Below are positions 1-64,000 of a DNA stretch of 64,000 nucleotides, one piece after another. This DNA is from Candidatus Altimarinota bacterium (GTDB taxonomy: Bacteria > Patescibacteriota > Gracilibacteria > BD1-5 > UBA6164): contig CALREY010000002.1 in assembly GCA_943356435.1 (NCBI GenBank), forward strand, positions 62,001-126,000, read 5' to 3'. The position numbers were made by a program, and so were the translations under genes. Positions within the stretch are counted from its first letter, which is position 1; each line of letters opens with the position of its first letter. The notes beneath the pieces were generated by a model that was not told the origin of the DNA, searched no databases, and worked only from the letters and a program-made list of their open reading frames with translations.

Positions 1-64
1 CCATTTAATGCATTGGTTAAATCATTTAAAATCTTTGAGGCTATATTTTTATCTGATTCTCATA

Positions 65-391
65 TTATTCACCATTTATTATCTGATTATAAAATTCAAT
101 TATTGATTTATGAAATTCATCTTTTAATACATAATTAGATGAGTATATATCTATTTGAAATTCATCTAAATCATTATATTTATCTAGAAAATCATCTTTA
201 AATTTTTCACAAAGAATATAAAAATCCTCATTAAATAGACTTTTATCTATTTTTATTATATCATGGATTATAAGTTCTAATATATAATGTAATTCATCTA
301 TTGATAAAATTTTATCATTAAGATATATTTCTATAATTTTTAATAACAAATCTTTTCTTTCATTTTTATTTCAAATAAGTAAAAATGTCAT
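65..391 (-). CDS. Small acidic protein, possible immunity protein of an adjacent toxin fragment
   Basis: A 108-residue protein starting MTFLLIGNKNERKD. The Gly at position 7 is a UGA codon, so under the standard code only the last 94 residues remain and the ATG start is missed. It is rich in Asp and Glu, predicted helical, and has no signal peptide or membrane segment. I recognise no family. It begins 6 bases after the stop of the toxin-like fragment at 398-898 on the same strand. Toxin first and small acidic protein immediately after is the usual order in polymorphic toxin-immunity cassettes, so immunity protein is my inference from context and composition, not from sequence similarity. Confidence 0.6.
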
Positions 392-397
392 AATTTT

Positions 398-898
398 TTA
401 TTTAATAATTAATTGATCCAAAAATGTTTTGGTTGGATCAGTAACAACTGTTACTATTTTTCAACTTCAATTAGGATCCAAAGCTAAATATTTACTGTCT
501 TTTAAAATTATATATTGACTATCTCTAGGATTCCAATATTTTTTTCAATTTTTATAAATATCTATAAGCGAATTAAAATCTATTCTTCATATTGTATTTC
601 TAGCTGCATGATCTGATAATATTATTCATAGTTTTTCAGCATCTGACTGAATTTTTTTATATAAGATTACAAAATCATTAGAATAATTTTTTAACCTACT
701 TGTAAACCTACCAAACTTCTTTATCTTTCCCAATATATTTAACTCTTGTCATACAGCTACTAAATCATTATTTAATTGTGCTTTTGCTACTGCTGTTAGA
801 TATTTATCATCTGTTATGTATCATGTCCAGTATGCAATTAGGGCTCACCATGATTTTCATATTGTTTGTAACCCACTTATTTCAAGTCAAAATTCTAT
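398..898 (-). pseudogene. Start-less toxin-like C-terminal fragment
   Basis: An open frame of 166 codons (UGA as Gly) follows an in-frame TAA at 899-901 and contains no ATG, GTG or TTG start near its beginning, so it looks like a 5'-truncated gene or displaced cassette. The C-terminal half holds SDHAARNTIGRID, then NGKKYWNPRDSQYIIL, and ends near ALDPNGSGKIVTVVT. A conserved His followed by a short basic helix, then a Tyr-rich strand and a final DPxGKIVTV strand, recalls small RNase-type toxin domains at the ends of polymorphic toxins. That resemblance is by eye only. It could also be a phage-type fragment or use a non-standard start such as ATT. Confidence 0.45.
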
Positions 899-901
899 TT
901 A

Positions 902-1452
902 AGCTATATCTTTATAACATAATAAATAAAGACAAAAACTGAAAAAATAAAGAAATATAGTTATTTTAAAAAAAGAGCTAAACAAATTAAGTAAAAATTT
1001 ACTTAATTTGTTTAGCTCTAGATAATCCAAAACTCGAGTAATGTAGTCAAAATATTCACATACAAAACAGTTAGAAAATAACTGTTATATATTTATATGT
1101 AAACTATACATATAATCAATATTTATAATATATTATATGTAAATAATTTGTTAAAAAGTCAATGTTATTATTTATATTTTTAAATAAATAATAAAAAAGC
1201 TAAAGTATTCTGATGAAATATCGAAATTATATTTTGTCAACAGAGGGCTTCAGCCCTTTGTTTTGGTTTTGTAGATAAAACTTGAACAATTTATCTCTTT
1301 TAGAAATGATGGGGGTTTTAGGGGGGGATGATTGAGGTGAGTACTTATTGAAATATCTTTACTTCGACAGCTGGAACTCATCCCCCCTAAGACTTTTGTC
1401 TTACTTTTGGTCTCAAAAGTAAGGGAGCAAAATTATTGCTCGTATTTTGGGC
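902..1452. other. Gene-free region with stacked inverted repeats
   Basis: No plausible gene was found here under code 25. It holds a perfect 22-bp inverted repeat (974-1019), a GC-rich hairpin around GGGCTTCAGCCC near 1246-1258 followed by a T-run, an inverted pair TTTTAGGGGGGGATGA/TCATCCCCCCTAAGA (about 1317-1332 and 1378-1392), and two further small hairpins at about 1400-1423 and 1427-1443. The G-rich runs resemble the repeats scattered elsewhere in the window. Confidence 0.6.
974..1019 (-). terminator. Perfect 22-bp inverted repeat, terminator-like
   Basis: The arms at 974-995 and 998-1019 are exact reverse complements with almost no loop. On the minus strand the stem is followed by a T-run, so it could stop transcription coming from the repeat-rich region upstream. 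Confidence 0.65.
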
Positions 1453-1483
1453 AAAAAAAAATGAATTTACATTCATTTTTTTT
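1453..1483 (-). terminator. Terminator of the cNMP-binding-domain gene
   Basis: Hairpin AAATGAAT-TTAC-ATTCATTT flanked by A/T runs. It overlaps the TAA stop codon of the gene at 1482-1898. Confidence 0.7.
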
Positions 1484-1898
1484 AATTCAATTTTTGTTTA
1501 TTTACTATACTCCTATCATTTATTATCAATTTAATTTTATCCATCAAGTCAGGATGTTTTTGTGTCAATTCTTTGATAGAAAATCATAATACTACTACTA
1601 ATACACAGTCTTCTATTGCTGTTGCAGTAGCCATTCTCTTGTTTGCATCTCAAAATAATGCCATCTCTCACAATATCTCTTCTGCTTGCACTTCTCAGAG
1701 TAGTATTTTTTCTCCATTATGCATTCTAGAAATCTCTATTTTTCATTCTTTTAATAGATACATAGCTGAAGCCTCATCTTGTTCAAAAAACAAAACCTCT
1801 CAAGCTTTTAAATGTTTTTCTTGACAGAATAAAGACAGATTATTTTTTTCTGATTCTGATAAGTCAGCAAGTAGTTTGATTCAGTCTACTAAAGCCAT
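1482..1898 (-). CDS. Cyclic-nucleotide-binding-domain protein
   Basis: 138 residues forming a single cNMP-binding (CRP-like) beta-roll. Residues 31-53 match the family entry segment (KAGEVLFFEQDEASAMYLL, then EGK). Residues 77-92 (GEMALFGDANKRMATA) match the phosphate-binding cassette, with Arg88 in the ligand-contact place. Several of the family glycines, in KAGE, LLGE, LGEM and LFGD, are UGA codons, which supports the recoding. No helix-turn-helix follows the domain, so it is not a classic CRP transcription factor. It may be a stand-alone ligand sensor or a partner of another protein. It is monocistronic, with its own terminator overlapping the stop. Confidence 0.88.
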
Positions 1899-1986
1899 AA
1901 TATTTTATTAAATATTAAATATATATATTTATATTATATAATATCATTTATATTAATATTTAGCAAATTTATTTAAAAATATTTTT

Positions 1987-2090: not shown

Positions 2091-4547
2091 CTATTTTTGT
2101 ATTTCTATTTTGTAAATCTCTAAATCATCTCACATCTCTACTACAACATTTGTATTCAATTTTATTCAACATTCTACTGGTCCTTCTAATTCTTTTACTT
2201 CTATTGTTCAAGCTTTTAATGAATCGATTTTTCAGTTTCAAATCATTTTTTTCTTTCTGATTATTCTTACTAATGTTTTATTTTCTATTTTGCTTTCTGG
2301 TGGTACTTTTAGACCAAGAATCATAAATCATTTAGCAGTAAAGAATATTCATCATACTTTTGCTTTACATAGAGCTATTTCTACCTCTTTTGGATCAAGC
2401 ATTCATGTAATAATTCTCTCTATTTTTTCAGTGATATGATAGATAATATCACTAGATATATATTCTACTCATGCTGTTTCTAGAGTAGATTTAGCAGTTG
2501 GTAATACCTCTACATTAAATCATACTAGAATAGCTTCACTTCATTTTCACATAAGTATATCTGTCTCAGTGATAGACCCTACTCATGCATGAATTATTTG
2601 TACTGTTGTTTCTGGAGTAGATAATTTCAAAAGTGATCATTTGATAGCTTCTAGAGAACCATTTGTATCAGCTTTTAATATTATTTTTAATTGTTTTAGA
2701 CTACCTGCTTTTATTTTTGACATAAGTAGTGCTAATCATGTAGTACCTACTATTTTTTGTCTATGTAATATAGCTCTATATTCTTCTGCTTTTTGTTTAG
2801 CCAATTCTACACTATTTACTACTTGTAATATATCACCTCAATCTACTACTTTATCCAATCATACAATAAGTACTGGTTCTCATGGTACAGCGTATTTCAC
2901 AGTATGGTTTGTATAGTCTTTTAATACTTTGATTTTACCATAAGTATCTTGACATACTATATTGTCCCCCATTTTTACTGTTCAAGTATTTACTAGTACA
3001 GTAGCAACAGGTCACAATTTGTGATCTAGATGTGATTCTATAACAGTAGCTATTCATGCTCTGTCTGGATTTGCTTTCAATTCTTGCATTTCAGCTACTA
3101 ATAATATGATTTCTAATAAATCATCTATTCAGAAACCTGAATGTGCTGAAATAGGCACCATAGGAGTATCACCTCCCCAATCTTCTGGTGTTAATCCATT
3201 TTCTACTAATTGACCTTTTACATGCTCTGGATTAGCTCATTCTTTATCCATCTTGTTGATAGCAACTATGATAGGTATTCCTGCTTCTTTTGCATGGTTT
3301 ATTGATTCTATTGTTTGTGGTTTTACTCATTCATCTGCAGCTACTAATAATACTGCGATATCTGTAGATTTAGCTCATCTTGCTCTCATGACAGTAAAAG
3401 CTTCATGTCCAGGAGTATCCAAAAATGTGATAGTACCATTATCTAGTTCTACTTGGTATGCTCATATACTTTGAGTGATTCAACCAGCTTCTCCAGATGC
3501 AACTTTTGCTTTTCTGATGTAGTCTAATAATGAAGTTTTACCATGATCTACGTGACCCATGATAGAAACAACTGGAGTTCTAGGAGTCAATTTTGATTGA
3601 TCATCTTCTCTAAGTAAATCAGCTATATTTCATGATAATACATCTTCTACTGATGCTCATGCTGATATATCTCTCTCTAGTTTAATATCAAATACTTCAG
3701 CAACTATAGAAGCTGAATCAAAATCTATTTTTGAGTTAATATTTACCATCATTCAGTTTTTCATGAATTCTGCCATAAGTCTAGGTAATACTACTCAGAT
3801 TTTTTCTGATAATTCTTTTAGTGATAATACTTCATGAACTACTACAGTTTCTCATTTTTTTTCTACTAAGTTTTGTTTGATATCTTCTATATTTTTTTCT
3901 AGTTTTTTATTTACTTTATTTGATCTAGTAAATGTTACTTCTTTATCTTCATCATATTTCAATCTACCTCTAGTCTTTTTATCTCAAAAGAATAATTTTG
4001 ATTTTTTTCATTCTGAATCATTATCAAAATCAGATCATTTATGACCTTTTTTATTATTGCTATGATTTGAGTGACTTGTATTAGTAACTGGGAATTTTTT
4101 ATGTGCGTCTTTATTGTTTTGAGTATTACTAGAAGAAGTATTTGTTTTATTGTCTTTATTTATAGTAAATTTGTTATTACCAGTATTTGAGTTTGGTTTA
4201 TTATGAGTTGATCTTTGAGTACTATCCATATCAGCTCTTTTTATAACAATTGTTTTTTTAGGTGTATCATCTCTTTTTGGTTGTTCTGCCCTCTTTACTA
4301 CTTCTATTTTTTGTACTATTCACTTTTTTCTTAGTTTCACTTTTACCTCTTCTTTTTTTTGTTCGTTTGGTTTTTTATCCGCTCAAGAAATAGCTCAATC
4401 ATTTTTTTGAACTACTGTTGGTTTTTTTATAATTATCTTTTTCTTTTGAACTACTACTGGTTTTTTTTGAGAATTATCCTTGTTTCAATCCTTTTCTGAA
4501 GAATTAATTTGAGAATAATAATCGTCTACTATATTTTTGTCTGCCAT
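2091..4547 (-). CDS. infB: Translation initiation factor IF-2
   Basis: 818 residues. IF-2 is a GTPase that brings initiator tRNA to the 30S subunit and promotes subunit joining. The first 200 or so residues are a charged, Lys/Asn/Ser-rich linker of low complexity. A conserved N2-like segment follows, then the GTP-binding domain with GHVDHGKT at about residue 331, DTPGHEAF (switch II) and NKMD (G4). Beta-barrel domains and the C-terminal fMet-tRNA-binding domain complete the family layout. In EAGGITQSIGAY one of the two glycines is UGA. Translation with UGA as stop breaks this gene into many pieces, as with most genes here. It ends in TAG and has its own terminator. Confidence 0.98.
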
Positions 4548-4689
4548 TATTAAAATTACTGAATAAATAAAGAAAATATTTGGATAGTAGAATAAGTAAT
4601 TTTTTAAAAAAGTCAAAAAATTATACAAAAACTTGTAAAAACAGGTTTTTTTATTAATCTCTAGGTAATTTAAAATTAAGTAGAAATAT

Positions 4690-5184
4690 ATGATAAATGA
4701 AATAAAATCATTAACAGAGGAATTTTTTAATAAATTAAGTATTAATATAGAATCTCTTGAAGTTACAAATGAGGAAAATTCAAATATATATAATATTATA
4801 ATTAATAGTAATGAATCTGGTATATTAATCTGACAAAATGGTAAAAATCTAGATAATATACAGAGTATTCTTAGACTTATGATTTCCACAAAAGTATGAG
4901 ATAAAATCAAACTTCATATGGAAATAAATGACTATATAAAATCGAGAGATGATAGACTTTTTGACTTTATTAAAAGCAAAATTTCATATGTAAAAAGCTC
5001 AAAAAAAGATTTCCGTCTACCATTTTATTCTGCATATGACAGAAAAAAAATTCACTGATTTATTTCAGAATTAAAAGATCCAATGATCTATACAAAAAGT
5101 GCTTGAGAATGAAAAGAAAGAAGATTAAATATCTGTTTTCAAGAAAGAAGACTTAGTATAGATATAGATTGAGATGATATATAA
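4690..5184 (+). CDS. khpB: KH/R3H RNA-binding protein KhpB (Jag/EloR-like)
   Basis: 164 residues. A KH domain with the GxxG loop in GILIGQNGKNLDNIQSILR is followed by an R3H-type segment: RLPFYSAYDRKKIHGFI and a final AGEGKERRLNICF, compared with R...H and SxGxxxxR in the family. KhpB binds RNA and in Gram-positive bacteria is linked to cell elongation. It is often encoded next to yidC, but here yidC lies 15 kb away with rnpA and rpmH. It is transcribed divergently from infB and followed 31 bases later by an anchored protein gene. The usual N-terminal Jag domain is reduced to about 40 residues. Confidence 0.85.
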
Positions 5185-5215: not shown

Positions 5216-6373
5216 ATGAAAAAGATTACAAAAAGAGTGATAACAACATTATTATTAACAATAGCTTTGGTATGATTTTATATCATAAATGGCCTGAATT
5301 ATAATAAACATATACAAATAAAAAGAAGTTTCGTAGAACACCCAGAAAATTTACCTACAAAAGAAGCAGCATTAAATAGTTCACTATGATATAAAAATCT
5401 GAAATCAGATATATATCGGTTGGAAGCTATACAATATATTTGATGAAATGCATTGTGATCAGAATATAAAAAATACTTGTTTGTGATGCTAGATTTGATT
5501 ACTGAACTAAATCCTTATTTCGATCATCCATATATAATAGGTCAATTATTATTACCGAGTTATAATGAAAGATACGAAAATCTACCTAAAGAAGAACAAG
5601 AAAAAAACATAAATCAATCAGTGACATTATGAATGAAATGAATCAAAAATTTTTGTGACCCAAACAAAATAGAACTGATTAAAAACGAAGAAAATTTACA
5701 AAAAATATGGACAGAAGAAAAATACAAAAACCCTTGTCGTGACTATAATATACCAAATTATTTAGCATACATATATTATTATTACAAACATGATCCAGAG
5801 TCTGCAGCTACATATTACAAAGTAGCAAGTGCAGTAGATGATTCACCAGCTTGAGCTAAAATAATGGCAGCAATAATGTCATGAAAATGATGAAATAGAG
5901 AAAAATCATATTTTATGTTTTTGAATATTGCTAAATTTATCCAAACTGATGACAAAGAATGTCTACAATATGCTAGCAATCTAGAACAAGCATGAGCTGA
6001 AATATTTATGAAAAAATGAGTAGAACTAAATTGAGCTGTGATACAAAATATAGCTAATAGTAGAGTGAAAATATTTGGAGAATTCAAACCAGAAAAAGAA
6101 CAAGAAGTATTATCAGATACTAAATGTGAAAACTATGTAAATAAAGCTATTCGTGAACTAAATCTAGAATATGTAGAAAGAGCAGAAGCTAAATACTTCA
6201 AAGACAAAGCAAAACATAGTCTAAGTGCAAAAGTATTATATGATGAAAAATATTTAGACTTCCTACCTGTTGATTTCCAACAATACAAGGATTATTGAAT
6301 AATATATTATTACAATACTGATATACAAAACTACGACTACAAAATGTGAACATATTGAGAATTAGATATATAA
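5216..6373 (+). CDS. Membrane-anchored helical protein, possibly TPR-like
   Basis: 385 residues. One hydrophobic segment at residues 9-26 (VITTLLLTIALVGFYIIN) should anchor it with the rest outside. The body is helical, with Tyr/Asn/Lys-rich helices. AYIYYYYKHDPESAATYYKV and the following AGAKIMAAIM have the spacing of helix-turn-helix TPR-like repeats, but no clear family was recognised. It follows khpB by 31 bases, so the two are probably co-transcribed. They share a strong terminator immediately after this stop. Confidence 0.8.
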
Positions 6374-9020: not shown

Positions 9021-10319
9021 ATGAAAATAGAAAAAAACTTACTAGCAAATTCTGTTGTAGAATTGGTAGTAGAAGAAGAAACACAAAATGTTGCTAAATA
9101 TAAAAAACAAGCATTAAACCACTTAGAAAAAAATGCTGATATTAAAGGTTTTAGAAAATGAACAAAGATACCAGAAGCTGTACTAGTGAGAAAATTCGGA
9201 GATGAATATGTAAATAGATTGACTATCGATTTCGCTATAGATGGTATTTATAGAGATGCTTTAAGAACGGAAAATATTATTCCAGTTGCTCAATGAGAAA
9301 TAAAAGAAATTATTTCTGAATCACCATTAAAAATAAAAATTCATATCGAAGTATTACCTACTGTAGAAATAGATTCAAAATATAAAGAAATAAAATTAAA
9401 AAAACAAGAAGTAACTATTACTGATGAAGAAGTGAAAACAGCAATGGATAATATTCAAACTAGATTTACATCATATGAAGTAGTAACTGATCCAGAATAT
9501 AAAGCAAAACTATGAGATAAAACAATTATTAATACTCAAGGTTTTGAAGACGGTAAATTGTTAGAGAATACTACTATGGATAAATACCCACTAGTACTTG
9601 GTATGAATATATTAGTTCCAGGATTTGAAGAAAAAATAGTATGAGCAAAAACAGGAGAAATGTTAGAATTACCTGTTGATTTCCCTGCTGATTATCATAA
9701 TCAAGATTTCGCTAATAAAAAAACTACTTTCAAAGTAGAAGTAGTAAGTATAGAAAAAGCAGTTAAACCTGAATTTACTCCAGAATTTATAGAACAATTA
9801 AGAGGTAAAAAACTTGATTTAGAAGGATTCAAAGAATTAATAAAAGAAGAACTAAGAGACACTAAAGAATCAAATGCTAGAATAGATGAAGAAACTAGAT
9901 TGATGGAAGAATTAATGAAAATAACTAAATTAGAAATTGGAACTAGTTTATTAAAAAATCAAACTGAAAAAGTATTCAACGAAATAAAAGAAAACATCAC
10001 TAAAGATGGTCTAAAAATAGCTGATTATTTAGAAAGTTTGAAAATGGATGAAGATACTTATAAAGAAAACAATGTAAAACCTATAGCAGAAAAAAGATTA
10101 CAATGAGAATTAGTTTTACATAAATTGGATGAACTTGAGACTGTTGAAATAACTGAAGAAGAAATGAATAAAGAAATAGAAAATATATTAGCTAGATTTG
10201 GTTCTAGTGATGTATTATCTAGATTAAAAGAATTATACATGCCAAATAGTAAATACTACGAAGAATTGAAACAAAGAATAAGATACAGAAAAATAATTGA
10301 TACATTTTTTGAAATATAA
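9021..10319 (+). CDS. tig: Trigger factor
   Basis: 432 residues, the usual trigger factor length. This ribosome-associated chaperone binds nascent chains near the exit tunnel. The ribosome-binding signature is present as IKGFRKGTKIPEAVL, where the second Gly is UGA. A central PPIase-like region includes LVLGMNILVPGFEEKIVGAKTGE, with the family pattern G..L..GFE....G...GE. A long helical C-terminal substrate-binding domain follows. Read with UGA as stop, this gene falls into several fragments including an apparent 148-residue protein. These are not separate genes. Confidence 0.96.
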
Positions 10320-10490: not shown

Positions 10491-10520
10491 AAAACCTAAG
10501 ATAAATTTATCTTAGGTTTT
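10491..10520 (-). terminator. trmD terminator
   Basis: AAAACCTAAGATAA/TTATCTTAGGTTTT stem that overlaps the trmD stop codon. A T-run follows on the minus strand. Confidence 0.8.
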
Positions 10521-11160
10521 CTTTTTTCCAGTTTTCTATTTGTTTATGATTCCCTGATAATAATACCGGTGGTACTTGCTGTCACATAAATATTTCTGGA
10601 CGAGTGTATACTGGATACTCTTTTTTTCTATCTAATAATTCTCAGAAACTATCTTCTTCTAGAGATTGTGTATTTCATAATACTCATGGTATATGTCTAA
10701 CAAGTCAATCTATAAATACACAAGCAGACAATTCTCAGCTAGTCAAAACATATTCTCAAATACTTATACTATAGTCTACATACAAGTCTATAATCCTCTG
10801 ATCAATTCATTCATAATGTCCACATATGATTATGAACTCTCCGTCCAATTTACTATAATATTCTTCTACTTTTTTTTGATTTAACAATTCTCAGCTAGGA
10901 GTCATATATATAACAGGTATTTTGTGTCCAACTTTGTCAAAGATGAAATCTATAGCTTTAGCTAATGGCTCAGGAGAAATAACTTGTCCATGCATACCAT
11001 AAGCTTTAGAATCAACTCTCTTGAAATTGTCATCTGAAAAATCATTCAATTTGTACAACTCACACTGAAAAAGTCACTTTTCTAATGCTCTTCACAAAAT
11101 AGAGCTAGAAAGATATGACTCAAAACTTTCAGGAAATATTGTAATAATATGAATTTTCAT
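10507..11160 (-). CDS. trmD: tRNA (guanine-N1)-methyltransferase
   Basis: 217 residues. TrmD methylates G37 of tRNAs, which prevents +1 frameshifting. The knotted SAM-binding fold is visible as CGHYEGIDQR (113-122) and SIGEYVLTSGEL (133-144), where several glycines are UGA. The C-terminal tRNA-binding part has [27 protein letters not shown]. It is about 20 residues shorter at the C-terminus than E. coli TrmD. It is not flanked by rimM, rplS or rpsP here. The region between its start and the cmk stop holds a long inverted repeat. Confidence 0.96.
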
Positions 11161-11284: not shown

Positions 11285-11821
11285 TTAATACATATAGTTT
11301 ACCAAGATTTTACTCATGATTATTTCTACTATTTCTTCTGGAGATATATTTGTAACATCTACTACTAAATCAAACTCTTCTTCTAAAGGTGGAAAAGTAA
11401 TACTTGGATAGATTTTTGAATATCTTTCTACTAGTTCATCTTCTCTCTTTTTTGTTTTTGATAATACTTCATCCATAGTTATTTGTTCCCTGTTTTGTAT
11501 TCTTTTATATCTTTCCCCGTTTTCACATTTCATAAATATTTTAAAAGAATCTGGTATGAAATACCGAGCTAATCTACTTTCAAATATGAAGTTATCATTA
11601 TGTACTCAGAATTCTCTGACTTTGTTGTCTAAATTTAAATCAAAATTATCATCTTCTTTAGCTATTTTATCTTCAAATTCATAGATACTCAATCATAACT
11701 CTTGCGCCCAATCTCTCATTATATTTCAGCTAGACATAAACTTATAATTCAAGTTTTGTGTTAATAATTTTCATACTGTAGATTTTCAGCTTCATGCTAA
11801 TCAAAATATCGTAATTTTCAT
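11285..11821 (-). CDS. cmk: Archaeal-type CMP kinase
   Basis: 178 residues, a small P-loop nucleoside monophosphate kinase. The P-loop reads GLAGSGKST from residue 7, and all its glycines are UGA codons. The layout fits the short archaeal-type (d)CMP kinase rather than the 220-residue bacterial one: a SSGNIMRDWA helix after the P-loop, DLNLDNKV, ESRLARYF, a RIQNRE segment, then REDELVERYSKIYP and FDLVVDVTNISPEEIVEII. It phosphorylates CMP/dCMP to the diphosphate. Adenylate-kinase-like activity cannot be excluded from sequence alone. Confidence 0.78.
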
Positions 11822-11946: not shown

Positions 11947-12990
11947 ATGAAAAATTTCCTAAAGAATTATCTATCTACAATCCTATTTTTGATTTTGGCT
12001 TATGTATTTTTTTACAATAATAAATTTTATCATGGTTTTTTAATAAAAGATTTCTCTTTTAATTTCACCAATTTTAGTATAAATACTTTAACAATTTATA
12101 AATGAATAATAATAGCTTATATACTATGATTAATCCCCTTTTATTACATATTTACAGATAAATCAAAAGCGAGAATTGTATTACACTACTTATACAAAAA
12201 GATAACAAATATAAAACATAAAATGCAAAATGAAGACAAAGTGTCTATATTAGCATGGAGTGTTAAGTTATTTTTTGCACCACTTATGATAGTATGGTTC
12301 ACATGACAAGTATTTACTATGAGCAATAATATGCATCTAGGATACAATGATCTGTCTATTTTGAATTATAGTTTTTACTTATATTTTCAAAAACACTTAT
12401 TCCGGGGAGTAATGTCTATAATACTTTTTGTAGATTTAATATTTTTCACTATATGATACTTGATAGAGATACCAAGCTTGAATAACAAAATAAAAAGTGT
12501 AGAACCTACATTTCTATGATGGTTTGTAGTACTAGTATGTTACCCTCCATTTAATACACATACGACTAGTATTATTTGATGGTATTCTACAGAGTTTCCA
12601 AAGTTTGCTAATGACTATATACATATAGCATTAAATACTATGATACTTATTTCTATGTGAATTTATTCTTGGGCATCTTTGTCATTATGACTAAAAGCTA
12701 GTAATCTAACAAATAGATGAATAGTAAAAAAATGACCCTACAAATATGTTAGACACCCTGCATATTTCTCGAAAAATATTGCATGGTGGATATGATGATT
12801 TCCATTATTATTCTGAAATATAGTATCATGACAATACAAAGATTTCTTTATAGTGCTATTTTCTCTGATTGTCTGGTCATTCATATATTTCATGAGAGCA
12901 ATAACAGAAGAAAGACATTTAAGTCTAGATGAAGACTATATAAAATATAAAAAAGAAGTAAAACATAGATTTATTCCCTGAGTATTTTAA
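11947..12990 (+). CDS. Isoprenylcysteine carboxyl-methyltransferase-like membrane protein
   Basis: 347 residues with about eight membrane segments. The C-terminal third has the ICMT/PEMT-type signature RGIVKKGPYKYVRHPAYFSK and, about 80 residues later, ITEERHLSLDEDYIKYK. The RHPxY and E-E-R-H..L residues are those that bind SAM and the active-site helix in this superfamily. The remaining N-terminal 200 residues are hydrophobic and not recognised. The substrate is unknown; bacterial members often act on small lipids or isoprenoids. It is divergent from cmk and ends at a bidirectional terminator shared with the surface protein gene. Confidence 0.82.
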
Positions 12991-21367: not shown

Positions 21368-21706
21368 TTATATTTTATTTAATAAAAATTTAATATCTTT
21401 TTTGAAAGAACTTATAATATTTTCATCTTTTTTATCCAATTTTGTTTGTTTTTTTACCACAAATACAAAATCATACGATTTAATCTCATGAAGTTTTTCT
21501 GAAACTAAGTCATAAAAACTTCTTCTAAAAAAATTTCTCTCTACACTAGTTTTAACAGATTTTCATCAAATTACAATAGCAAATCTATTTTTTTCTAAAT
21601 TATTTTTTTGATAATTCAAAACTATTCAATAAGAAAAAAAAGGTTTTCACCTAGTCAAAACCTTTTTTACTTCTCTTTCAGATAATCTATTTGTTTTTGG
21701 GATCAC
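21368..21706 (-). CDS. rnpA: Ribonuclease P protein component
   Basis: 112 residues. RnpA supports the RNase P RNA in 5' maturation of tRNAs. N-terminal RLSEREVKKVLTRGKPF is followed by NRFAIVIGGKSVKTSVERNFFRRSFYD. The last block is the family RNR-type motif, with the first Gly of IGGK being UGA. I chose the GTG at 21704-21706 because an in-frame TAA lies two codons upstream and no ATG exists before the conserved region. It lies 19 bases after rpmH and just before yidC. Confidence 0.92.
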
Positions 21707-22083: not shown

Positions 22084-22776
22084 TTAAGATATCAAACTCC
22101 CCTCTTTTTCACCATTCACTGCTCTCAATACAGCTCATTGTTTAGATAGATTTACTACCTTTATTTTTAATTGATTATCCTTTGCTAAAGCCACTGCATT
22201 TTGATCTAGTATCTTTAAATTTTTACTTATTACTTCTTCATAACTTATATTTTCATAAAATACTGCATCATCATATTTCATAGGATCTTTATCATATACT
22301 CCATCTACTTTTGTAGCTTTTATCATCATATCACAATCTAACTCTAACGATCTAAGTACTCATCCTGTATCAGTTGTGAAATAAGGATTACCTATTCCAC
22401 CAGTACATATAACTATTTTTCATGTTTTCAAATATTCTAATGCATTATTTTTAGAATAATCTTCTACGAATTTTACACCATTAGGATCCATTACTACAGA
22501 ACTTATTCAAGATTGTTCTAAAAAATTTTTTAGTACTACTCCATTGAAAACTGTAGAAAGCATACTTAGATTGTGTGAATCAGCAGCATTAACTCATTGA
22601 TATATTAGATTTCAACCTCTATATATATTTCCTCATCAAATAACTATTGCTATTTGTGTATTATTATCATATATTTCTTTTATTATGTTTACCACATTTT
22701 TCGTAAATTCCGGGTCTATTCAAAATTCTTTTTCTCATTTCAAAGCTTCACCAGATATTTTTAGTAATATTCTCAT
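22084..22776 (-). CDS. pyrH: UMP kinase
   Basis: 230 residues, family length. PyrH converts UMP to UDP in pyrimidine nucleotide synthesis. It begins MRILLKISGEALKGEKEF, has the substrate-binding IAIVIGGGNIYRG segment, and CTGGIGNPYFTTDTGCVLRS followed by MMIKATKVDGVYDKDP, as in the amino-acid-kinase fold of UMPK. Several family glycines are UGA. No frr or tsf neighbour is present here. A dispersed repeat sits just upstream. Confidence 0.96.
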
Positions 22777-27614: not shown

Positions 27615-27625
27615 TTTATTTAATA

Positions 27626-40900: not shown

Positions 40901-43900
40901 TTGTTGCTCAGCCTGGAGTAATATCTCTCATATCGCTAGATCTAGCAGCTGTGTCAAACACATTTGTAAAATCATTAGTAAATGCATTTATAGGCATAGC
41001 TATTTGTCTAGCTAGTTCTACTATAAAATCAGCTTCAAATTCCATATTTACATATGTACTTACACTAATAGCATCAACAAATGGGAATGAAAATTCAGGA
41101 CTAGATTTTTGGAAGAAATCAAATCATAAATACCCAGTTCTCTCTGTCAAAAATGCAATTTGGTCTCAAGCTCTCCACTCTGGATGTAGAACAGATGACT
41201 TCAATATACACATAGCTTTAGTTATCAGTTTGATTATATCAACCACTATTTCTATACTAGATAATAACTTAGGTAGTTTAGGTGGTGGTGGTAAATCTGG
41301 TAGCTCTATTTTTGGAAGAGTTGGTAAATCTGGTAACTTCGGAATACTTATAGAAGGTAATACAGGAATTTCTGGAAATTGTACACTAGCAGAAACACTT
41401 ACACTAGGCACTTTAGGCAGATTTAATGCAGGTAAATTAGGTAAAATAATAGGTTTTGATGTGATATTGTATTCTGGTAATGTAACTCTCAATCATGCTC
41501 TAATATTATGTAAATCTAGTATAATATCTGGCCATTTTGGGAATCTAATTACAGGAATCTTTGGCATTATCATATCAACAAGAGAAAATTCTTCTTCAAG
41601 TGCATCTTGTCTCTCATTTTTACAATCGTGACATTCTTCTTGATAATCCAAGAAAACATCAACTAGTAATTGCCAAGATTTTAATACCGCTTTAATCATG
41701 ATATATAATTCAACCCAAGCTTTGAATCTAATACCATTTTTTCATATCCGTCATCCTAACAAGTAAGAAATAGTATCTATATTACATAATACTTGTTCTA
41801 AATAATCTTGTTTTTTTGTTATTAGTTTATTGATATCTTCTGGTATTTCTTTATATGATTGAATTACTTCTATATTATCCCTTAGTGAACTAATCATATT
41901 ATTTGCATTTGATAACAATTGTGCCGAAGCTTTGTTTGATAATGCATTTTCTTGTTCACAAGCTGCTTGATCAGCAGCATTAGGATAATTACATGATTTT
42001 CATAGACTCCATGATTCTGATGCACTATTTACTTCTTCTTCCCGCTCTGACAATGTATTAGTCCAAGAAGATATAGTTCTATTTAATTCTGCATCTGATA
42101 ACCAAGGTAACTCTATATTTACAGTTTCTTGATCTATATAAACCATAGGTAAACTACCGATGAATTCATATGCTTCTTTGATTCAAGAATTTACTTTTTT
42201 AGCATAATTATTTGCTTGTTCATTTCAAATCAAATTAGGATCAATAGCCAAACTATCCATAGCATTTTTTGCTTTGTTTCAGCTCATTTCTCACCAATTT
42301 CAATCTAGTAATCAAGTAAAATCTGGTAATATAACAAAAAGTGTTGGGAAATCTGTCAATTTATTTGCGATTTCTTCTATTTGTCTAGTTACCCAATCCA
42401 TTAACCAACTTGGAAATGGAGTAATTCTTTTCATATTTATCTTGATAACATCTTCGAAGTCTCAGCTAAATAATGATTCTAAATCTAGACTTACATCAGC
42501 TTCAGAATTTCATTGTCTAAACATAGATCTTTGAGGTGATTCTGAAAAATCAATTGGTAAGAAATCAAATGCTTCTTCTACTGGTCATTTTTTTGCTTGT
42601 TCTAGATATTTACCTATTTTTTCAGTTGAAGGATTATTTACTTTTTCTTCTTGTTTACAATTTCCATTGATAACTCAAAAAGTTCCATCTTCTGAATAAT
42701 TAGGAGTTCATGTAGATCAAACATCTCAATCAGATCAATCTCCTGCACATCAAAATGTCTTTTTAGCAACTACTATACAGTTTCATCCTGGAAATAATGG
42801 ACTTATAGTTTCTGGTACAGAATTCCCCGCAATATAAGCTGGTCATCAGAAACATATAGCTGTTCATATTCCTCAGGTTAATGTAGGAGTAACAAATAGT
42901 CTAAAGAAATTTGTAGGATTATATATTCATAGTTCTCAACCAGCTCATTTTCATGAACATCATACACTTTTTACAGATGATGGCCATACACTAGGAACAC
43001 ATAATGGTCAAACATTTTCCCAAGTCAACATAGAAAATAGAGGCAATCATTCATCTACTATCAATCAATCTCAAATATATTTTCACATAAAAACTGGATC
43101 AGATCATGGTGCTAGTGGTGCCCAGTTCAATGGTGATGCAAAACAAGATTCATTTCCAAATCAACAATTCAATCATTGAACAATATTATCTAAAGCATCC
43201 AATGCTCACTCTATTTTTGATCACATTCATCACAAATCAACTGTAATACTTCAATCCATTTCAAAGCTATCTTCTTCATTTGGAAGTCAATCTCTATCAT
43301 TATCTTGATGCATTTCATTCAATTTTTGTTTTGAATATTTTTGTAGTTCTTCTGTATTATCTGGATTTGATAATTTATCAATATAGTCAGGAACTCAATT
43401 ACCATCATTATCAACAGTATTTTGTTCTATTTCTGGTGGTAGTTTTGATTTTTCTGCATCACAAACAGGTGCTTTTATTCATTTTTGATATGATCTATTT
43501 ACTTCTCATGATCTATATATCTCTATAGGATTACTACAATTTTGATTATTAGGTTTTATGATAATATCTCCATATTTATCATCTCCTGATTCACCTTTTT
43601 CAAACAATCAAACTTCTATTTTATTGTATTTTAGAGGTTTAACTTTAGTTTGATAAGTAAATTTAACAGATCAATTTACTGGAATATCAAAATTATCAAT
43701 CAAATAACTATATCAACTAGTTCAATCAAAAATATCAAAATCTGTCAATGACTTGAATGATTTTGGATCCATAGTAAATACATCTGCAACAGTATCAGCA
43801 AATACTACATTATTTAGTTTTACATTAGATACATTTTTCAGAGTTACTTCTACTTCAACTGAATCATTAGCTGAAACAAATTTACCATTTTTATCTACAA

Positions 43901-50544: not shown

Positions 50545-51804
<1,260 letters not shown>

Positions 51805-53716: not shown

Positions 53717-55231
53717 TTATATACCACAAGTACTATCGCCAATAATAGGTCTAAAAACCTTTACATTATCATATCATTTTTCCTTTAAATACAATCAATG
53801 AAGATTTGATAAAACTCACCTTTCACAATATAATAAATACACTTTTGAATTATCTAATTCTGAATATTTATGATTTATATCGTAAAATGGTATTTCTAAT
53901 ATTTCAACATTTTCAAGTAATAATGGATTTTTAACTATGTTTGATTTTTCCCTTAAATCAATAACTACTTCGTTATCTCAAGGTAAAAAAACAACATCAA
54001 GTTCAGTTGCATCTATTCATTTGTATTGTTCCATCATGTCTTTTACGAACTCTAGTTTTTTGTTTTCCACTGCTTTAAAAAGTATTTCTTCAGGTATTTT
54101 TTCTTCCTCTGCCAATACTTCTTCTAATTTTGCTCAAACAGATGGTCTATCAGATATTACACCACAGTATTCTGGCATATTACAAGCAAAATTGTAAGTT
54201 CCAATTTGTTTTGAAATATCTACTATTTCTTGTTTATTATATGAGATAAGTGGTCTAAAAACTAAATTCGTACTTGCTTTGTCTATAACATGAATATTTT
54301 TTAGAGTTTGACTAGAAACTTGTCACAAACTATCTCATTTTATAAGTGCATAATGTGATCATTCTGAGATAATTGATGCAGCTTTCAACATAAATCTCTT
54401 CAAAATTATTCCTCTATATTTATGATTAGTATTTTCTACTAATTGCTTTACTATTTCTTCGAAATTAACAGTTATAAATTTTGCTCTTTTATATGGTACA
54501 GAAAAATTTTTCCATAAATAATATGATACTTGTTTTACTCAGAGTTCATGAGCACTTCATCATAAATTGAAGAACAAATAATCTACTTCGCAACCTCTTT
54601 TCATCATAGAATAAGTACTTACTCATGAGTCAAATCATCCAGAAATCAGACTCAAAACTCTGTCTTGAAATCATACTGGATAACCTGCAATTCATTCTAC
54701 TCTATTTTTTACTATATGTAGTTTCCTATCTTTTATTTCCAACTTCACTGTTATATCAGCTCATTCTAGTTTTACTTTTGCATTATTTGTATCTCTTAAT
54801 AATGATCATCACAAATACCTCTCTAAATCTAGTGATTTAAAGCTATGATTTCCTGTTCTTTTTACTCTGACTACAAAAGTTTTGTTTTCTATTTTATCTA
54901 GATAATAATCTTTTATTTTTGAATAAACTAAATCAAATGTTTCATTTTCAGTTAGATTTTCTACTCACTCAACATCAGTTTCTGGTAACAAAATAGTTTC
55001 TACTTCTAGGAAATTTGATATACCAGGTATTTTTAAAAGAATATTTGGAATATTGATATTTTCATCTCTAGATTCTATATTTATTCTATCCCAATTTCCA
55101 GTAACATTTGCTTTTATATCATTGTATTCTAAATGTTTTTTTATATTATTTCTCAGCGTCATCACTGCTCTTTTTCTCACTCATCTAGATTTAATAGACA
55201 ATTCTGGAGAGATTTTTACTATGTATTTCAT
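53717..55231 (-). CDS. thiI: tRNA 4-thiouridine sulfurtransferase ThiI with rhodanese domain
   Basis: 504 residues. ThiI makes s4U8 in tRNA and in some bacteria feeds thiazole synthesis. N-terminal ferredoxin-like plus THUMP region ([20 protein letters not shown]), PP-loop SGGFDSGVSTY that adenylates U8, MPEYCGVIS with the partner Cys, and a C-terminal rhodanese domain with YCERGVLSN carrying the persulfide Cys. It is the long E. coli type, uncommon in reduced genomes. No IscS/NifS-type sulfur donor lies in the window. It begins 19 bases after the O-methyltransferase stop. Confidence 0.95.
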
Positions 55232-55250: not shown

Positions 55251-55802
55251 TTATTTCACTATCATCATTACTCAATCATCTATATCAATTGGTAATACAT
55301 TGTATTCTATATTATTTTCTAGCATATATTCCCGTAATCAAACCATTTTTTCTTTGAATTTTATTACATCATCTATGATTATTATTCATCATTTTTTAAG
55401 TTTTGGTAATGATAATTCTAGGAAATCTTTACTTCTTCTCATCATCCCATCTATAAAAATGAAATCATAACTATTGTCTATCAATTTAGGTATTTCATCT
55501 AGTGCATTTCATAATATTAGAGAAATAGTATCATCTAATCATACTTTACTTACATTTACTTTTGCTTCTTCATGAGATTTAGGTGAAAAATCTATTGTTA
55601 ACAGTTTACCTCCGACTTTTTCTAACTCAATTCAAAAATTAATAGCACTAAATCAATTAGCTGTTCATATTTCAAGCATATTTTTTGTATTTGATACTTT
55701 TATCAAATCAATCAATAATTTTGCATTTACATCACTTATATTTGGAACAGTATTTTCTATACCATACTGTCTCAATGATTTTAAAAATTGTATTCTATCC
55801 AC
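55251..55802 (-). CDS. O-methyltransferase (family 3-like)
   Basis: 183 residues. SAM-binding Rossmann fold: MLEIGTANGFSAINFGIELE is motif I (EIGTxxGxS, with several UGA Gly), then KLLTIDFSPKSHEEA, YDFIFIDGMMRRSKDFLELS with the metal/acceptor Asp, and KKGGIIIIDDVIKF. This is the layout of bacterial class I O-methyltransferases acting on small molecules or tRNA hydroxyuridine (TrmR). The start is GTG, because TAA lies in frame three codons upstream and no ATG precedes motif I. It forms an operon with thiI, so a tRNA substrate is possible. Confidence 0.88.
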
Positions 55803-56774: not shown

Positions 56775-59306
56775 ATGTACATACATAAAGACATAGAAAA
56801 AAAATGGCAAAATTATTGGGAAAAAAATAAAACATACAAAACTGAGAAAGATTTTTCTAAACCTAAATACTATACACTAGATATGTTCCCTTTTCCATCT
56901 GGAGCATGATTACATGTAGGACATCCTGAGTGAATGACTGCAAATGATATAGTAGCAAGATACAAAAAAGCCAATTGATACAATGTACTTCATCCAATGT
57001 GATGGGACGCTTTTTGATTGCCTGCTGAAAATTATGCTATCAAAACTGGTACTCATCCAAGTATCACGACAAAAGACAATATAGACAATTTCAGAAAACA
57101 AATCAAGTCTCTATGATTTAGTTATGACTGGGATCGTGAAGTAGACACGACAGATCCGAAATATTATAAGTGGACACAATGGATATTTTTGAAACTATTT
57201 GAAAAAGGTTTGGCTTATGAACAAGACTTACCTATTAATTATTGTCCATCATGCAAGACATGATTGGCAAACGAAGAAGTATTAAATGACTTTACATGCG
57301 AAAGATGTGGGACAAAAGTAGAAAAAAAACAAATTAGACAATGGGTATTGTCTATAACTAAATATGCTGAAAGATTATTAAAAGATGTAGACAGACTAGA
57401 CTGGCCAGAATGAATAAAAGACATGCAAAGAAACTGGATAGGTAAATCTGAAGGATGTGAATTTGAATTAAAAAAATCTGATGATAATAAAAAATATATC
57501 AGAGTATATACTACTAGAGTAGATACAGTTTTTAGTATGGCATTTGTTGTAATAGCACCTGATCATCCAAATGTATATGATTTCATAACTGAAGATTATT
57601 ACACAGAGTGTGAAGCATATATAGAAAAAGCAAATTCTAAATCTGACCAAGATAGAACTCAAGACGATAAAGAAAAAACAGGTGTATTTACAGGTAGTTA
57701 TTTAATAAATCCTTATAATAATGAGATTGTTCCATTATGGATTTGAGATTTTGTACTATGACATTATGGTACTTGAGCTGTATTCTGAGATGCTCATGAT
57801 AAAAGAGATTTTTTATTAGCAAAAAAATATCATATTCCATTAAAAGTATCAATTATTCCAGCAAATTCTAATGAAGAACAAAAAAATAATATTTTAAATT
57901 TTGAAGAATGTTTTACTGATTATTGAGTATTAATAAATTCTTGAGAATTTGATTGACTTACTAGTACAGAAGCTAAAACAGTACTTGCAGAATATGCAGA
58001 AAAAAACTGATTCTGAGAGAAAAAAGTGAATTATAAACTGAGAGATTGGTTATTTAGTAGACAAAGATATTGGTGAGAACCTATACCTCTAGTTCATTGT
58101 GAAAAATGTTGAATAGTAGGAGAAAAAGAAGAAAATTTACCTATATTATTACCAGAAACAGATAATTTTGAGCCTTCATGAGATGGAACAAGTCCATTAA
58201 GTAAAATAGATAGTTTTGTAAACTGCAAATGTCCTAAATGCGACTGACCAGCAAAAAGAGAAACAAATACTATGCCTCAATGGTGAGGAAGTTGTTGGTA
58301 TTACTTGAGATATATGGACCCAAATAATGCTAATGAATTAGTAAATAAAGATATAGTAAATTATTGGTGAGAAGTGGATTCTTATGTTTGAGGAGCTGAA
58401 CACGCTGTACTTCATTTATTATATGCTAGATTTTGGCACAAATTCTTGTTTGATATCTGAGTAGTACCTACTGATGAACCATTTTTTAGACTTAGAAATC
58501 AATGATTGATATTAGCTTATTCTTATCAAAATCCAATTGGTAAATTGATAGCTAATGACTTGGTAGAAGAAAGAAATTGAGAATTTTTTGATATAGAAAC
58601 TGGTGATAAACTAGAAAAAGTTGTTGCAAAAATGTCAAAAAGTTTAAAAAATGTTGTAAACCCAGATGAAATAGTAGATGAATATGGTGCTGATTCTCTT
58701 AGATTGTATGAAATGTACATGGCTGAGTTCAAAGACTCTGCTCCTTGGGATACTAGAAATATTATTTGAGTAAGAAGATTTATAGAAAAATCAGAAAGAT
58801 TGTTTACTACAGAAGCAAAAACAACGAGCGAAGATGATAATACTACTATGAAATTGCTTCATAAAACAATTAAAAAAGTACAAGAAGATATAGAAAACTA
58901 CAAATTCAACACTGCTATTTCTAGCTTGATGATTCTAGTAAATAATTGATTACCAAAAGATAGTGAATTACAAAAAGAATTCAAAAATACATTTGTAAGA
59001 TTACTTCACCCTTTTGTACCTCATTTAGCTGAAGAATTATGGGAAAGAATATGAGAAAATGAATCTGTTTTCTTTTCAAGTTGGCCAAAATATGATGAAA
59101 AAATGACTATAGATGATACTATAGAAATAGCTGTGCAAGTATTAGGTAAACTTAGATGAACAATAGAAATAAACAAAGACGAAGACAAAGAATTTATACT
59201 AGAAAAAGCAAAAAATAATACTGATGTAGCTAAATGGCTAGAATGAAAAGAAATAGTAAAAGAAATATATGTACCATTAAAAATCGTAAATATAGTTATT
59301 AAATAA
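56775..59306 (+). CDS. leuS: Leucyl-tRNA synthetase
   Basis: 843 residues, class I synthetase. HIGH motif HVGHPEGMTANDI, followed by LHPMGWDAFGLPAENYA, in which both the Gly before Trp and the Gly of FGLP are UGA while Trp is UGG. This single stretch distinguishes UGA=Gly from UGA=Trp. A zinc knuckle (CPSCKTG...CERCGT), the CP1 editing domain with TTRVDTVF, a second Cys cluster (CKCPKCDG), [13 protein letters not shown], the KMSKS loop [14 protein letters not shown] and a helical anticodon domain complete it. Confidence 0.98.
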
Positions 59307-61511: not shown

Positions 61512-62006
61512 TTAATTAATTGTATTATTATTTAATTTTGATGTTATTTCTGGAAAATGTATCATTATTTCCCTATTTGCACTCTCAATGCTATCAGCTG
61601 CATGTGTCATATTATATCTAGTCTTTTTTCTATCTACTAAATACTCATCTCTGATTTCTACTAGTATTTCCCTGCCTCTTTTAACTGCATTATCTCAATA
61701 AAAAATTATCCAATACGAATTACCTGAAGCCATATATTCTACTAAAGTATCAAATGTCCGCTCTTTTAATATTGGACTTAATGTATTTCTATGCTCTTCA
61801 TAATGCCTCTCTGCAGTTTCTATATCTAGTTTGTATTCTTTTTCTTTTATTATTTCGAAATCGTTATCTTTAAGTCTAGAAATAACATAAGATATAAAAT
61901 CGTAAGGATTTTCTGGTAAGTCTTTTTTTAGCTTATCATATTCTGATCTAGGATTATTTGGACTAAACGCATCAGGTTTTATTCAAAATAAACTATATTC
62001 TTTCAT
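61512..62006 (-). CDS. ndk: Divergent nucleoside diphosphate kinase
   Basis: 164 residues. Family features: N-terminal SLFGIKPDAF (IKPDxF, Gly UGA), FEIIKEKEYKLDIETAERHY with the substrate-binding Tyr region, FDTLVEYMASG, and the active-site segment TRYNMTHAADSIESANREIM, whose His matches N-x-x-H-x-S/A-D-S of NDK. The usual TNPxxAxxGTIR is altered to an AVKRGREILVEIRDEYL-like stretch with an insertion. It is probably active, but the divergence leaves room for another nucleotide role. It starts upstream of rnhA, with 1 base between them. Confidence 0.82.
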
Positions 62007-62063
62007 ATACTATTTATTAATAATTAACTAAGAAACTATAACTAAGTTTTAATATAATTCAAA

Positions 62064-62089
62064 TAAAAAAGAACTCAATTAAGAGTTCT
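62064..62089 (-). terminator. sod terminator
   Basis: AGAACTC-AATTA-AGAGTTCT with a T-run on the minus strand, 5 bases past the sod stop. Confidence 0.75.
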
Positions 62090-62094
62090 AATTA

Positions 62095-62670
62095 TTATAT
62101 CAAATTTGCATTTACAAAACTCCAGTTAACTAGATTCCAGAAATTTTCTACATATTTTGCTCTAGCATTTCTAGTATCTATATAATATGCATGTTCCCAA
62201 ACATCTATTACTAACAATGCTTTATTATCAGTAGTTAGAGTAGTAGCCGCATTTGAAGTATTAACTATTTCTAGTTTTCCTTCTGGAGTTTTTACTAGCC
62301 AAGTCCATCCAGAACCAAAGTTTGAAAGTGCACTTGCAGTAAATTTTTCTTTGAATTCAGCTAATCCAGAAAAATCTCTAGTAATTAATTCAGCTATTTC
62401 TCAACTAGCATCTCATCCTGCATTTGGTGCTAAACAATGCCAGTAAAATGTATGATTCCACACTTGAGCTGCATTATTAAATAATGGTCATGAAGAATTT
62501 TTGATTAGTTCTTCTAAATCATCATTATTCATATCAGTTCATACAGTCAAATTATTTAGATTATCTACATACGTTTTGTAGTGTTTTCCATAGTGATATT
62601 CTAATGTTTCAGCAGATATAAAAGGTTCTAAAGCATTTTTTTCATATGGTAATTCAGGTAGTTTAAACAT
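62095..62670 (-). CDS. Fe/Mn superoxide dismutase
   Basis: 191 residues, the usual length. It begins [20 protein letters not shown]. The metal ligands are all visible: His in [19 protein letters not shown], His in [12 protein letters not shown], and Asp and His in [21 protein letters not shown] is the conserved Trp cluster. Fe or Mn preference cannot be told from these residues. Some Gly, such as one in GPLFNNAA, are UGA. A monocistronic gene with its own terminator, in an otherwise fermentative-looking gene set. It points to occasional oxygen exposure. Confidence 0.96.
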
Positions 62671-62755
62671 AATTATTAATTTAAATATTAAAATATTACT
62701 AAAATAGTAATCATTCTCATTATAAAATCAAGTAAAAAAAAGAAAAGTAATTTTT

Positions 62756-63667
62756 TTACTTCCCTTTATACTTCCTGATTAGATTAATAATATAATATTT
62801 CAATTTCTTATTAACATATATATAACTTTCACTTACATCTCTAATATCACTAGTAAACTTTTTCTTGAAATCTGTTACTCAAGCAAGTGGACTATCTATA
62901 TCTTCTGGTCATGCAACTCATAGAAAATCATATATATTCGAACCTATTGATTTAGCTATTTTTATAGCTTCCCATTGTAATAAATAAGGTGACATTAAAT
63001 TCCTATAATTAGCATCTCAAGATGATGCTCAATAATAATAAATACTTTGATTTTCTTCAAATACAAATATTCATCCAGCAATTACTACTCACTCATAGTA
63101 TGCTAATAATAATTTAGAATTTTCTAATGTATTTAAAAATATTTTATAATAATCTTTTGTGTTACCATTAAATCAATCTCTAGAAGTAGTTTCTAGCATC
63201 AAGTTATAGAATAAATCAATATTTTCATCTGTTTTTTCTACAGCTTTTACTTGTACTCACTTTTTTTCTGCTAATTTAATATTATATCTACCTTTTGGTT
63301 TCATGTTGGACAATATTTGATCAAGTGTCAAACTTGTGTCTATAACAGCAGTATATGGAGTGATAAATTTTTTATAATATCACTTATTTAATGAATACTC
63401 TACTCTATATTTTGAAGAAACAATTAATGATTTATACGAAAAATTCTCTATCTGTAAAAACAAAGCTTTTTCTTTTTTACAAATCTGAATCATATCATTT
63501 AATTCTATCATCAATATATCTTTTTCTAGTCATAGAACAAAAAGCCCATATTCTCATAATGCGACTTTTCTCTTTTCTATAAATATTCAGTTTGATTCTA
63601 TTATTTTTTCTGCTTGTCATGATGCAACTAGCATTTCTCACCATTTTTTTGTTTGCCAAATAGACAT
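62756..63667 (-). CDS. FemX/FemAB-type peptidyltransferase-like protein
   Basis: 303 residues. Starts MSIWQTKKWGEMLVASGQAE, where the TGG-TGA pair gives Trp-Gly. FemAB/FmhX signature segments follow: KPKGRYNIKLAEKKGVQVKA (KxRxNIRxAxKxGV), LFYNLMLETTSRDGF, IYYYGASSGDANYRNLMSPY and YDFLGVAG. These enzymes use aminoacyl-tRNA to add bridge amino acids to lipid II. In an organism that has reassigned UGA to Gly, a Gly-tRNA-using member would be notable, though the amino acid used is unknown. It starts 4 bases after the stop of the uridine-kinase-like gene. Confidence 0.9.
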
Positions 63668-63671
63668 ATTT

Positions 63672-64000
63672 TTATATTAAATTAGGAATATTATTTTCTT
63701 TTATAAATTTATCTAAATCAAATCATCTAAGCTCTAAATATGGATCAAATTCATTAATAATTATCATATCTGAAATTTCTTTTTGTGGTTCTATGTATTT
63801 TTCATGCATAGGATTCACTACTGTTTCAAATATTTCTACTATTTCATTTACTTTTTGCCTAGTTCTTTTCATGTCTCTCAAAATTCTTCTAATAAGTCTA
63901 CCATGTGTAGAAGTTTCCACAAACAATTTCAGATCAGACAAACTAATAAATATCTCATGTAGAGTAAATAATCCCTCTACAATTATAACTTTTTTTGGTT
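63672..64000 (-). CDS. Uridine-kinase-like P-loop kinase (C-terminal part)
   Basis: The gene runs off the right edge, so only the last 109 or so residues are seen. KKVIIVEGLFTLHEIFISLS, then DLKLFVETSTHGRLIRRILR, DMKRTRQKVNEIVEIFETVV and PMHEKYIEPQKEISDMIIIN match the lid and C-terminal region of uridine kinases/phosphoribulokinase-like enzymes (VIVEG.F.L, D..R..RRI.RD....R). The P-loop lies outside the window. It likely salvages uridine/cytidine and forms an operon with the FemX-like gene. Confidence 0.72.

Follow-up and report, generated by a model that had tools for sequence, protein, structure and literature searches.

Which genetic code is used in a chromosome piece whose conserved proteins are broken, one after another, by in-frame TGA? 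The question is raised by a 64,000-nucleotide stretch (the window; positions 62001 to 126000 of contig C2 of genome G000) from a 1.55-Mb assembly of 30 contigs with an estimated completeness of 90.3%. An initial annotation, made from the letters of the window, had proposed that UGA is read as glycine throughout. We conclude that UGA is a glycine codon in this piece of a Gracilibacteria (BD1-5) chromosome, with a probability of about 0.97, and the sequence comparisons described below make it very probable that CGG is read as tryptophan in the same genome. The codons CGG, CGA, CGT, TGG and TGA were judged individually.

Reading frames and in-frame TGA codons

Translated with table 11, the window contains 36 open reading frames (ORFs) of at least 80 amino acids, the longest having 226; with table 25 it contains 91, and the longest reaches 4166 amino acids. 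Conserved proteins are thus broken by in-frame TGA under the standard code, as the initial annotation had stated. From the table-25 list we chose by hand 49 main ORFs, which together cover 92% of the window (1..64000, no strand assigned). They carry 863 in-frame TGA codons, or 63% of the glycine codon set, the remainder being made up of GGT (272), GGA (190), GGG (25) and GGC (10).

The 49 ORFs end in TAA (42) or TAG (7). The claim that genes end only in TAA or TAG agrees with these counts, but the counts themselves are circular, as the ORF calling had already treated TGA as a sense codon. Alignments in which TGA was masked provide the independent support: they reach the C-terminus of the query, or nearly so, in leucyl-tRNA synthetase (LeuRS; 843 of 843 residues), RNase J (686 of 686) and UMP kinase (229 of 230). 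That they extend this far, homologue ends included, is non-circular evidence that TGA is read as sense.

The genes that carry most of the comparisons were identified by Pfam. On the forward strand are LeuRS (56775..59306, 32 in-frame TGA codons) and trigger factor (9021..10319). The reverse strand encodes translation initiation factor IF-2 (2091..4910, 40 TGA codons), seryl-tRNA synthetase (SerRS; 50545..51804, 16), RNase J (23958..26018, 25), a UMP kinase of the amino acid kinase family (22084..22776, 10), TrmD (10507..11160, 11), a ThiI-like sulfurtransferase (53717..55231, 21) and the RNase P protein RnpA (21368..21706). Four glycine motifs that had been said to contain TGA do so exactly at the codon level: EAGG(TGA)ITQ in IF-2, where the second G is the TGA, GFRK(TGA) in trigger factor, I(TGA)EYVLT in TrmD and I(TGA)(TGA)K in RnpA.

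Residues opposite TGA

LeuRS, with each TGA masked as X, was aligned with 27 standard-code loci hand-picked from 80, one of which (L142) has one in-frame stop. Seven loci (L070-L075 and L093), from UBA6164, Gracilibacteria, another Patescibacteria metagenome-assembled genome (MAG) and a doubtful Spirochaetales MAG, were excluded on purpose; a further 46 loci, nearly all from Streptococcus, are also outside the 27-row set. Glycine stands opposite TGA in 523 of 854 residue pairs and is the commonest residue in 21 of the 32 TGA columns. At a conservation of at least 80% there are 20 TGA columns: 17 with glycine, two with alanine and one with valine. As a control, the TGG codons of the same gene face tryptophan in 516 of 540 pairs. 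Conserved TGA columns of isoleucyl-tRNA synthetase (IleRS) gave a similar distribution (29 glycine, one alanine and one lysine among 31).

The best Protein Data Bank (PDB) hits of six proteins were counted in the same way, leaving aside the final block of RNase J and an IF-2 block spanning query positions 274-375. Pooled, the alignments place glycine opposite 61 of 106 TGA codons, and neither tryptophan nor cysteine opposite any; GGN codons in the same alignments face glycine at 63 of 84 positions. The individual values are 15 of 33 counted positions for IF-2 against E. coli IF-2, 18 of 24 counted for RNase J against RNase J1 (chain 3zq4), 8 of 10 for UMP kinase, 6 of 11 for TrmD, and 7 of 14 aligned positions each for SerRS and the ThiI-like protein. 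The expectation of the initial annotation that TGA falls on glycine, and not on tryptophan or cysteine columns, was thus borne out.

A third comparison used orthologues from up to seven relatives, paired as reciprocal best matches in the fetched stretches, with one residue per site and with TGA, CGG and CGA masked everywhere. Glycine is the commonest residue at 407 of the 658 TGA sites of the genome, followed by serine (62), alanine (40), asparagine (28) and aspartate (27). When the 20 possible amino acid models were ranked by log-likelihood at these sites, glycine was best (-1078) and serine next (-2537).

TGA usage is uneven within the order, ranging from 1 to 51 codons per LeuRS gene examined and from 0 to 16 per match to release factor 1 (RF1). 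Four genomes (G014, G016, G034 and G036) have one or two LeuRS TGA columns each, none of them glycine, though tRNA(UCA) is present.

The machinery for decoding UGA

A tRNA-Gly with anticodon UCA, which the initial annotation had led us to look for, is encoded at G000:C1:66364-66442, where ARAGORN labels it tRNA-SeC. Its acceptor end (G1:C72, C2:G71, G3:C70 and U73) is the same as that of the genome's own tRNA-Gly(UCC), and this is the combination used as the glycine identity rule in PMC8629427. On visual inspection, its acceptor stem comprises 7 bp and its variable loop is short. It was found in 36 of 39 genomes and is 100% identical in seven besides the present one.

The proposed lack of release factor 2 (RF2) likewise agrees with the profile searches. 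In this assembly, 90.3% complete, the RF1 gene prfA is matched above its cut-off (445 bits), whereas no prfB lies above cut-off, the sole match being the prfA locus itself (258 bits against a cut-off of 370); prfB exceeded the cut-off in none of the 20 genomes searched. The RF1 gene (G000:C5:4785-5840, L180) encodes its GGQ motif as GGT TGA CAA, the second glycine being the TGA, and the release factor therefore needs UGA to be glycine for its own catalytic motif.

Several observations weigh against glycine. Roughly 40% of TGA sites in the LeuRS, relatives and PDB sets stand opposite other residues, and three of the 20 conserved LeuRS TGA columns are alanine or valine. No tRNA(UCA) match was obtained in G009, G018 or G035 among the 39 genomes searched, and at 90.3% completeness the absence of prfB, tRNA(UCG) and tRNA-Arg(UCU) is no proof for this genome taken alone. 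A Mycoplasma-like code in which UGA specifies tryptophan (table 4) could draw on the fact that here, too, a low-GC genome lacks prfB, and on the larger number of bacterial species with UGA reassigned to tryptophan in a table of PMC8629427. We regard this reading as extremely improbable: tryptophan faces none of the 106 TGA codons in the PDB alignments, the LeuRS TGG codons fall on tryptophan while the TGA codons fall on glycine, and the tryptophan model has a log-likelihood of -4340, far below that of glycine. No more credible is UGA as a stop in decayed genes, or as selenocysteine. Frames closed by TAA or TAG span 92% of the window, while off-frame TAA (922 and 1072 in the two other frames) and TAG (862 and 446) are common in the same genes; for TGA, the in-frame count (863) is on a par with the off-frame counts (375 and 927). 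Selenocysteine has the ARAGORN label in its favor; the conserved TGA columns are, however, glycine, with cysteine at 0 of 106 PDB positions, and tRNA(UCA), whose acceptor stem by eye has 7 bp and whose variable loop is short, differs in these traits from a tRNA-Sec. Codon-frame counts, tRNA form and residue columns thus led us to reject tryptophan, selenocysteine and pseudogene decay in favor of glycine.

CGG codons fall on tryptophan columns

CGG is rare, with eight occurrences in the window and 14 among 49,389 codons in 168 kb of the genome. We compared eight genomes of family f1 by reciprocal best matches and found CGG in 16 orthologous columns, contributed by six of the eight. Eleven columns are informative: nine are tryptophan, one is phenylalanine (in RF1) and one methionine, with no arginine; the log-likelihood is -11.7 for tryptophan and -81.3 for arginine. 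The CGG sites of the present genome alone gave three tryptophan, one phenylalanine and one methionine.

Within the window, codon 157 of an O-methyltransferase gene (55251-55802; CGG at 55332..55334, reverse strand) lies in a tryptophan/aromatic column where G003 and G007 also have CGG. Tryptophan is found here in seven relatives (G001, G002, G006, G009, G026, G027 and G029), and 21 further rows have tyrosine (15), glutamate (2), lysine (2), asparagine (1) or phenylalanine (1), and never arginine. Beyond the window, a LeuRS CGG of MAG STA_93 (L073) falls on a column that is tryptophan in 26 of 27 standard rows, and a CGG in the IleRS of G020, in which no tRNA(CCG) was found, is on a tryptophan column; among genomes carrying tRNA(CCG), IleRS offered no informative CGG.

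The remaining seven CGG codons of the window are in a cytidylate kinase-like gene (11564..11566, reverse), an NDK-like gene (61758..61760, reverse; PDB alignments uninformative at the codon), ORF 5216-6373 (5417..5419, forward), ORF 11947-12990 (12403..12405, forward), ORF 26285-27136 (26342..26344, reverse), and codons 2805 (42042..42044) and 2903 (41748..41750) of the 4166-amino-acid ORF, both reverse. No relative aligned at the sites in ORFs 5216-6373 and 11947-12990 or at codon 2903; CGG recurs in G001 at the site in ORF 26285-27136 and in G002 at codon 2805, the column being uninformative in both cases.

tRNA(CCG) and the arginine tRNAs

A tRNA with anticodon CCG (G000:C15:36396-36472; L029, L200) has the acceptor end A1:U72 with G73, a combination that, among the 31 tRNAs of the genome, is shared only with tRNA-Trp(CCA). 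The arginine tRNAs CCU and GCG of the same genome have A73. Close copies of tRNA(CCG) occur in 17 of the 39 genomes; every one of these belongs to family f1, which has 23 members, and all 17 copies have G73, an identical odd T-loop and a nearly identical D-loop. By eye, all 17 genomes have an A at the expected G18 position of the D-loop and a T-loop of sequence UGCAAUU, residue 55 being G; these oddities are possibly a paired tertiary change.

A tRNA-Arg(UCG) with A73 was detected in 12 of the 39 genomes, namely G028, of family f1, and 11 members of family f2. It co-occurs with the G73-bearing tRNA(CCG) in none of the 39, and ten genomes yielded neither; both surveys relied on DNA similarity to one copy, and divergent genes may escape them, as the CCG tRNA of G014 with A73 illustrates. 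In the genomes of families f2 and f3 and in G028, CGA and CGG are mainly on arginine columns, with some lysine, glutamine, glutamate or asparagine. CGA is likewise mainly on arginine columns in G024 (f1), which has no CGG in the genes examined.

The reader of the main arginine codon AGA, tRNA-Arg(UCU), was not found in the present assembly. Because the genome's tRNA-Val(UAC), which adjoins tRNA-Arg(UCU) in G029, G028, G030 and others, is separated from the terminus of contig C1 by just 21 bases (stretch examined, G000:C1:197145-197242; L355), this is likely an assembly gap at the contig end. Partial matches in G001 to G003 had raised the suspicion of a tRNA-Arg(UCU) split by an intron; this was rejected, the stretches having been found to contain tRNA-Arg(GCG) and, in G003:C50, tRNA-Asp.

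Is CGG arginine after all, as in plain table 25 with its UGA = glycine? A number of observations tell against tryptophan and, in part, for this alternative. The informative columns number only 11; some relatives have glutamate, lysine or asparagine at the methyltransferase column; and two LeuRS CGG codons of G010, a genome that has tRNA(CCG), are on columns that are neither tryptophan nor arginine. A smaller, earlier pairing had set one arginine (AGA of G001) opposite a CGG of the present genome, in a pair that later proved not to be reciprocal best. CGG also sits mostly on arginine columns elsewhere in the order, as in the IleRS of G014 (five arginine, one lysine), G032 (four arginine, one glutamine) and G036 (three arginine, two lysine, one glutamine). 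Finally, the D-loop of tRNA(CCG) is unusual, and its N20 may, by eye, be A, an arginine element according to a rule in PMC8629427. Against arginine stand its complete absence from the informative columns of the eight f1 genomes, nine of which are tryptophan, and an acceptor end like that of tRNA-Trp, in contrast to the A73 of the two undisputed arginine tRNAs. Furthermore, CGG (14) is more frequent than CGA (7) in the genome, despite a strong preference for A over G at the third position in GGA:GGG (370:55) and AGA:AGG (1064:86). We consider arginine improbable and favor tryptophan for CGG. Table 25, recommended in the initial annotation for retranslation, thus serves for UGA but not for CGG.

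CGA and the arginine codon box

Even fewer CGA codons are present (7 of 49,389). Eight CGA sites in the genus face arginine (3), lysine (2), asparagine (1), glutamine (1) and alanine (1), with log-likelihoods of -19.4 for arginine, -21.8 for lysine and -51.5 for tryptophan; judged by these columns, CGA looks arginine-like in the genus. ARAGORN detected no tRNA(UCG) or tRNA(ACG) in the present genome. In G029, whose genome is one contig (1,343,103 bases) and in which CGA accounts for 48 of 33,246 codons counted, the arginine tRNAs are UCU, CCU and GCG, accompanied by tRNA(CCG). No tRNA(ACG) was found in either genome, only GCG. A DNA similarity search for tRNA(UCG) in G029 was negative, with the caution that an Rfam scan of G029 had omitted the tRNA(CCG) found by DNA search and that a divergent tRNA(UCG) could escape likewise; ARAGORN, run with introns allowed on 13 longer stretches of the present genome and G029, revealed none further.

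One tentative hypothesis, to which we give less than even odds, is a CGR pair divided without recourse to inosine: CGG would be tryptophan by way of tRNA(CCG), CGA would be arginine by an unrecognised route, and the code would have been caught in mid-change beside a complete UGA = glycine reassignment. Under such a split, CGA might be read by a modified tRNA-Arg(GCG) or by a hidden intron-bearing tRNA, or it might be an almost unassigned codon. PMC8629427 argues that a CGA/CGG split is difficult in these bacteria, as they lack an inosine tRNA; the present genome is a candidate for the very split considered there.

Other genes of the window

The 4166-amino-acid ORF (37956-50456, reverse) contains 200 TGA codons, and Pfam recognises only an FG-GAP-like repeat in it. 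Three adjacent T4SS_pilin-type genes lie at 27141-28397 (reverse), and a fourth, at 55947-56306 (forward), adjoins the LeuRS and methyltransferase genes; relatives' loci in this region often match it. A ParE-type toxin gene is located at 30434-30712 (forward). The neighboring ORFs 32047-34665 and 34730-35983 (both forward) have N-termini that look alike by eye, and the second has a DsbA/thioredoxin-like domain.

Discussion

The nearest named relatives by LeuRS are UBA6164 (a Patescibacteria MAG; G001), of the same genus as the present organism, and Candidatus Gracilibacteria bacterium 28_42_T64 (CP042461.1; G029), of the same family. NCBI classifies UBA6164 as unclassified Patescibacteria only. 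By these matches the organism is on the Gracilibacteria side, in keeping with the earlier suggestion of a lineage in or near Absconditabacteria and Gracilibacteria.

We propose that UGA is decoded by a dedicated tRNA-Gly(UCA), presumably charged by glycyl-tRNA synthetase and used as such in the cell, and that termination would be carried out by RF1 alone, at UAA and UAG. For the arginine codons, tRNA-Arg(UCG) was most likely lost under AT pressure, with CGA and CGG nearly vanishing, and CGG was most likely captured for tryptophan by a tRNA(CCG) with a tryptophan-type acceptor end; CGA remains arginine-like and is almost gone. The order of these steps is inferred. Since genomes with a detectable tRNA-Arg(UCG) and genomes with the tryptophan-like tRNA(CCG) occur within one family without overlapping, among the 39 surveyed, it could become possible to place codon loss and capture in sequence, and the apparent lack of a CGA reader poses a testable decoding question. 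In practice, annotation of this genome must use UGA = glycine, which is routine for the lineage; table 25 would still mistranslate CGG.

Part of this is already known. In Gracilibacteria, UGA is established as glycine: PMC4032931 gives, for BD1-5 proteomics, 97 peptides unique to the glycine reading against three for tryptophan, and PMC6851277 reports that prfB is missing from a 1.343-Mb gracilibacterium and from the other BD1-5 genomes then available. CGG as tryptophan in some Gracilibacteria, and as arginine in others, is a prior prediction of PMC8629427. In the open literature searched we found no statement that combines CGG = tryptophan with CGA = arginine in Gracilibacteria.

Three known systems invite comparison, two of them described in PMC8629427. 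Anaerococcus and the RFN20 Bacilli resemble the present genome in reading CGG as tryptophan and CGA as arginine, in missing tRNA(UCG), in the rarity of the codon and in low GC content; there, however, CGA is presumably read by an inosine-containing tRNA(ACG), whereas the present genome has tRNA-Arg(GCG) and yielded no ACG. The Absconditabacteria code predicted by Codetta shares UGA = glycine and CGG = tryptophan with a tRNA(CCG), but it assigns CGA as well as CGG to tryptophan, while in our case CGA is arginine-like and no tRNA(UCG) was found. The third system is NCBI genetic code 25, with which the genome has in common UGA on glycine columns, a tRNA-Gly(UCA), no RF2 found with RF1 kept, UAA and UAG as stops, and the lineage itself; the difference is in CGG, which is arginine in table 25 and tryptophan-like here.

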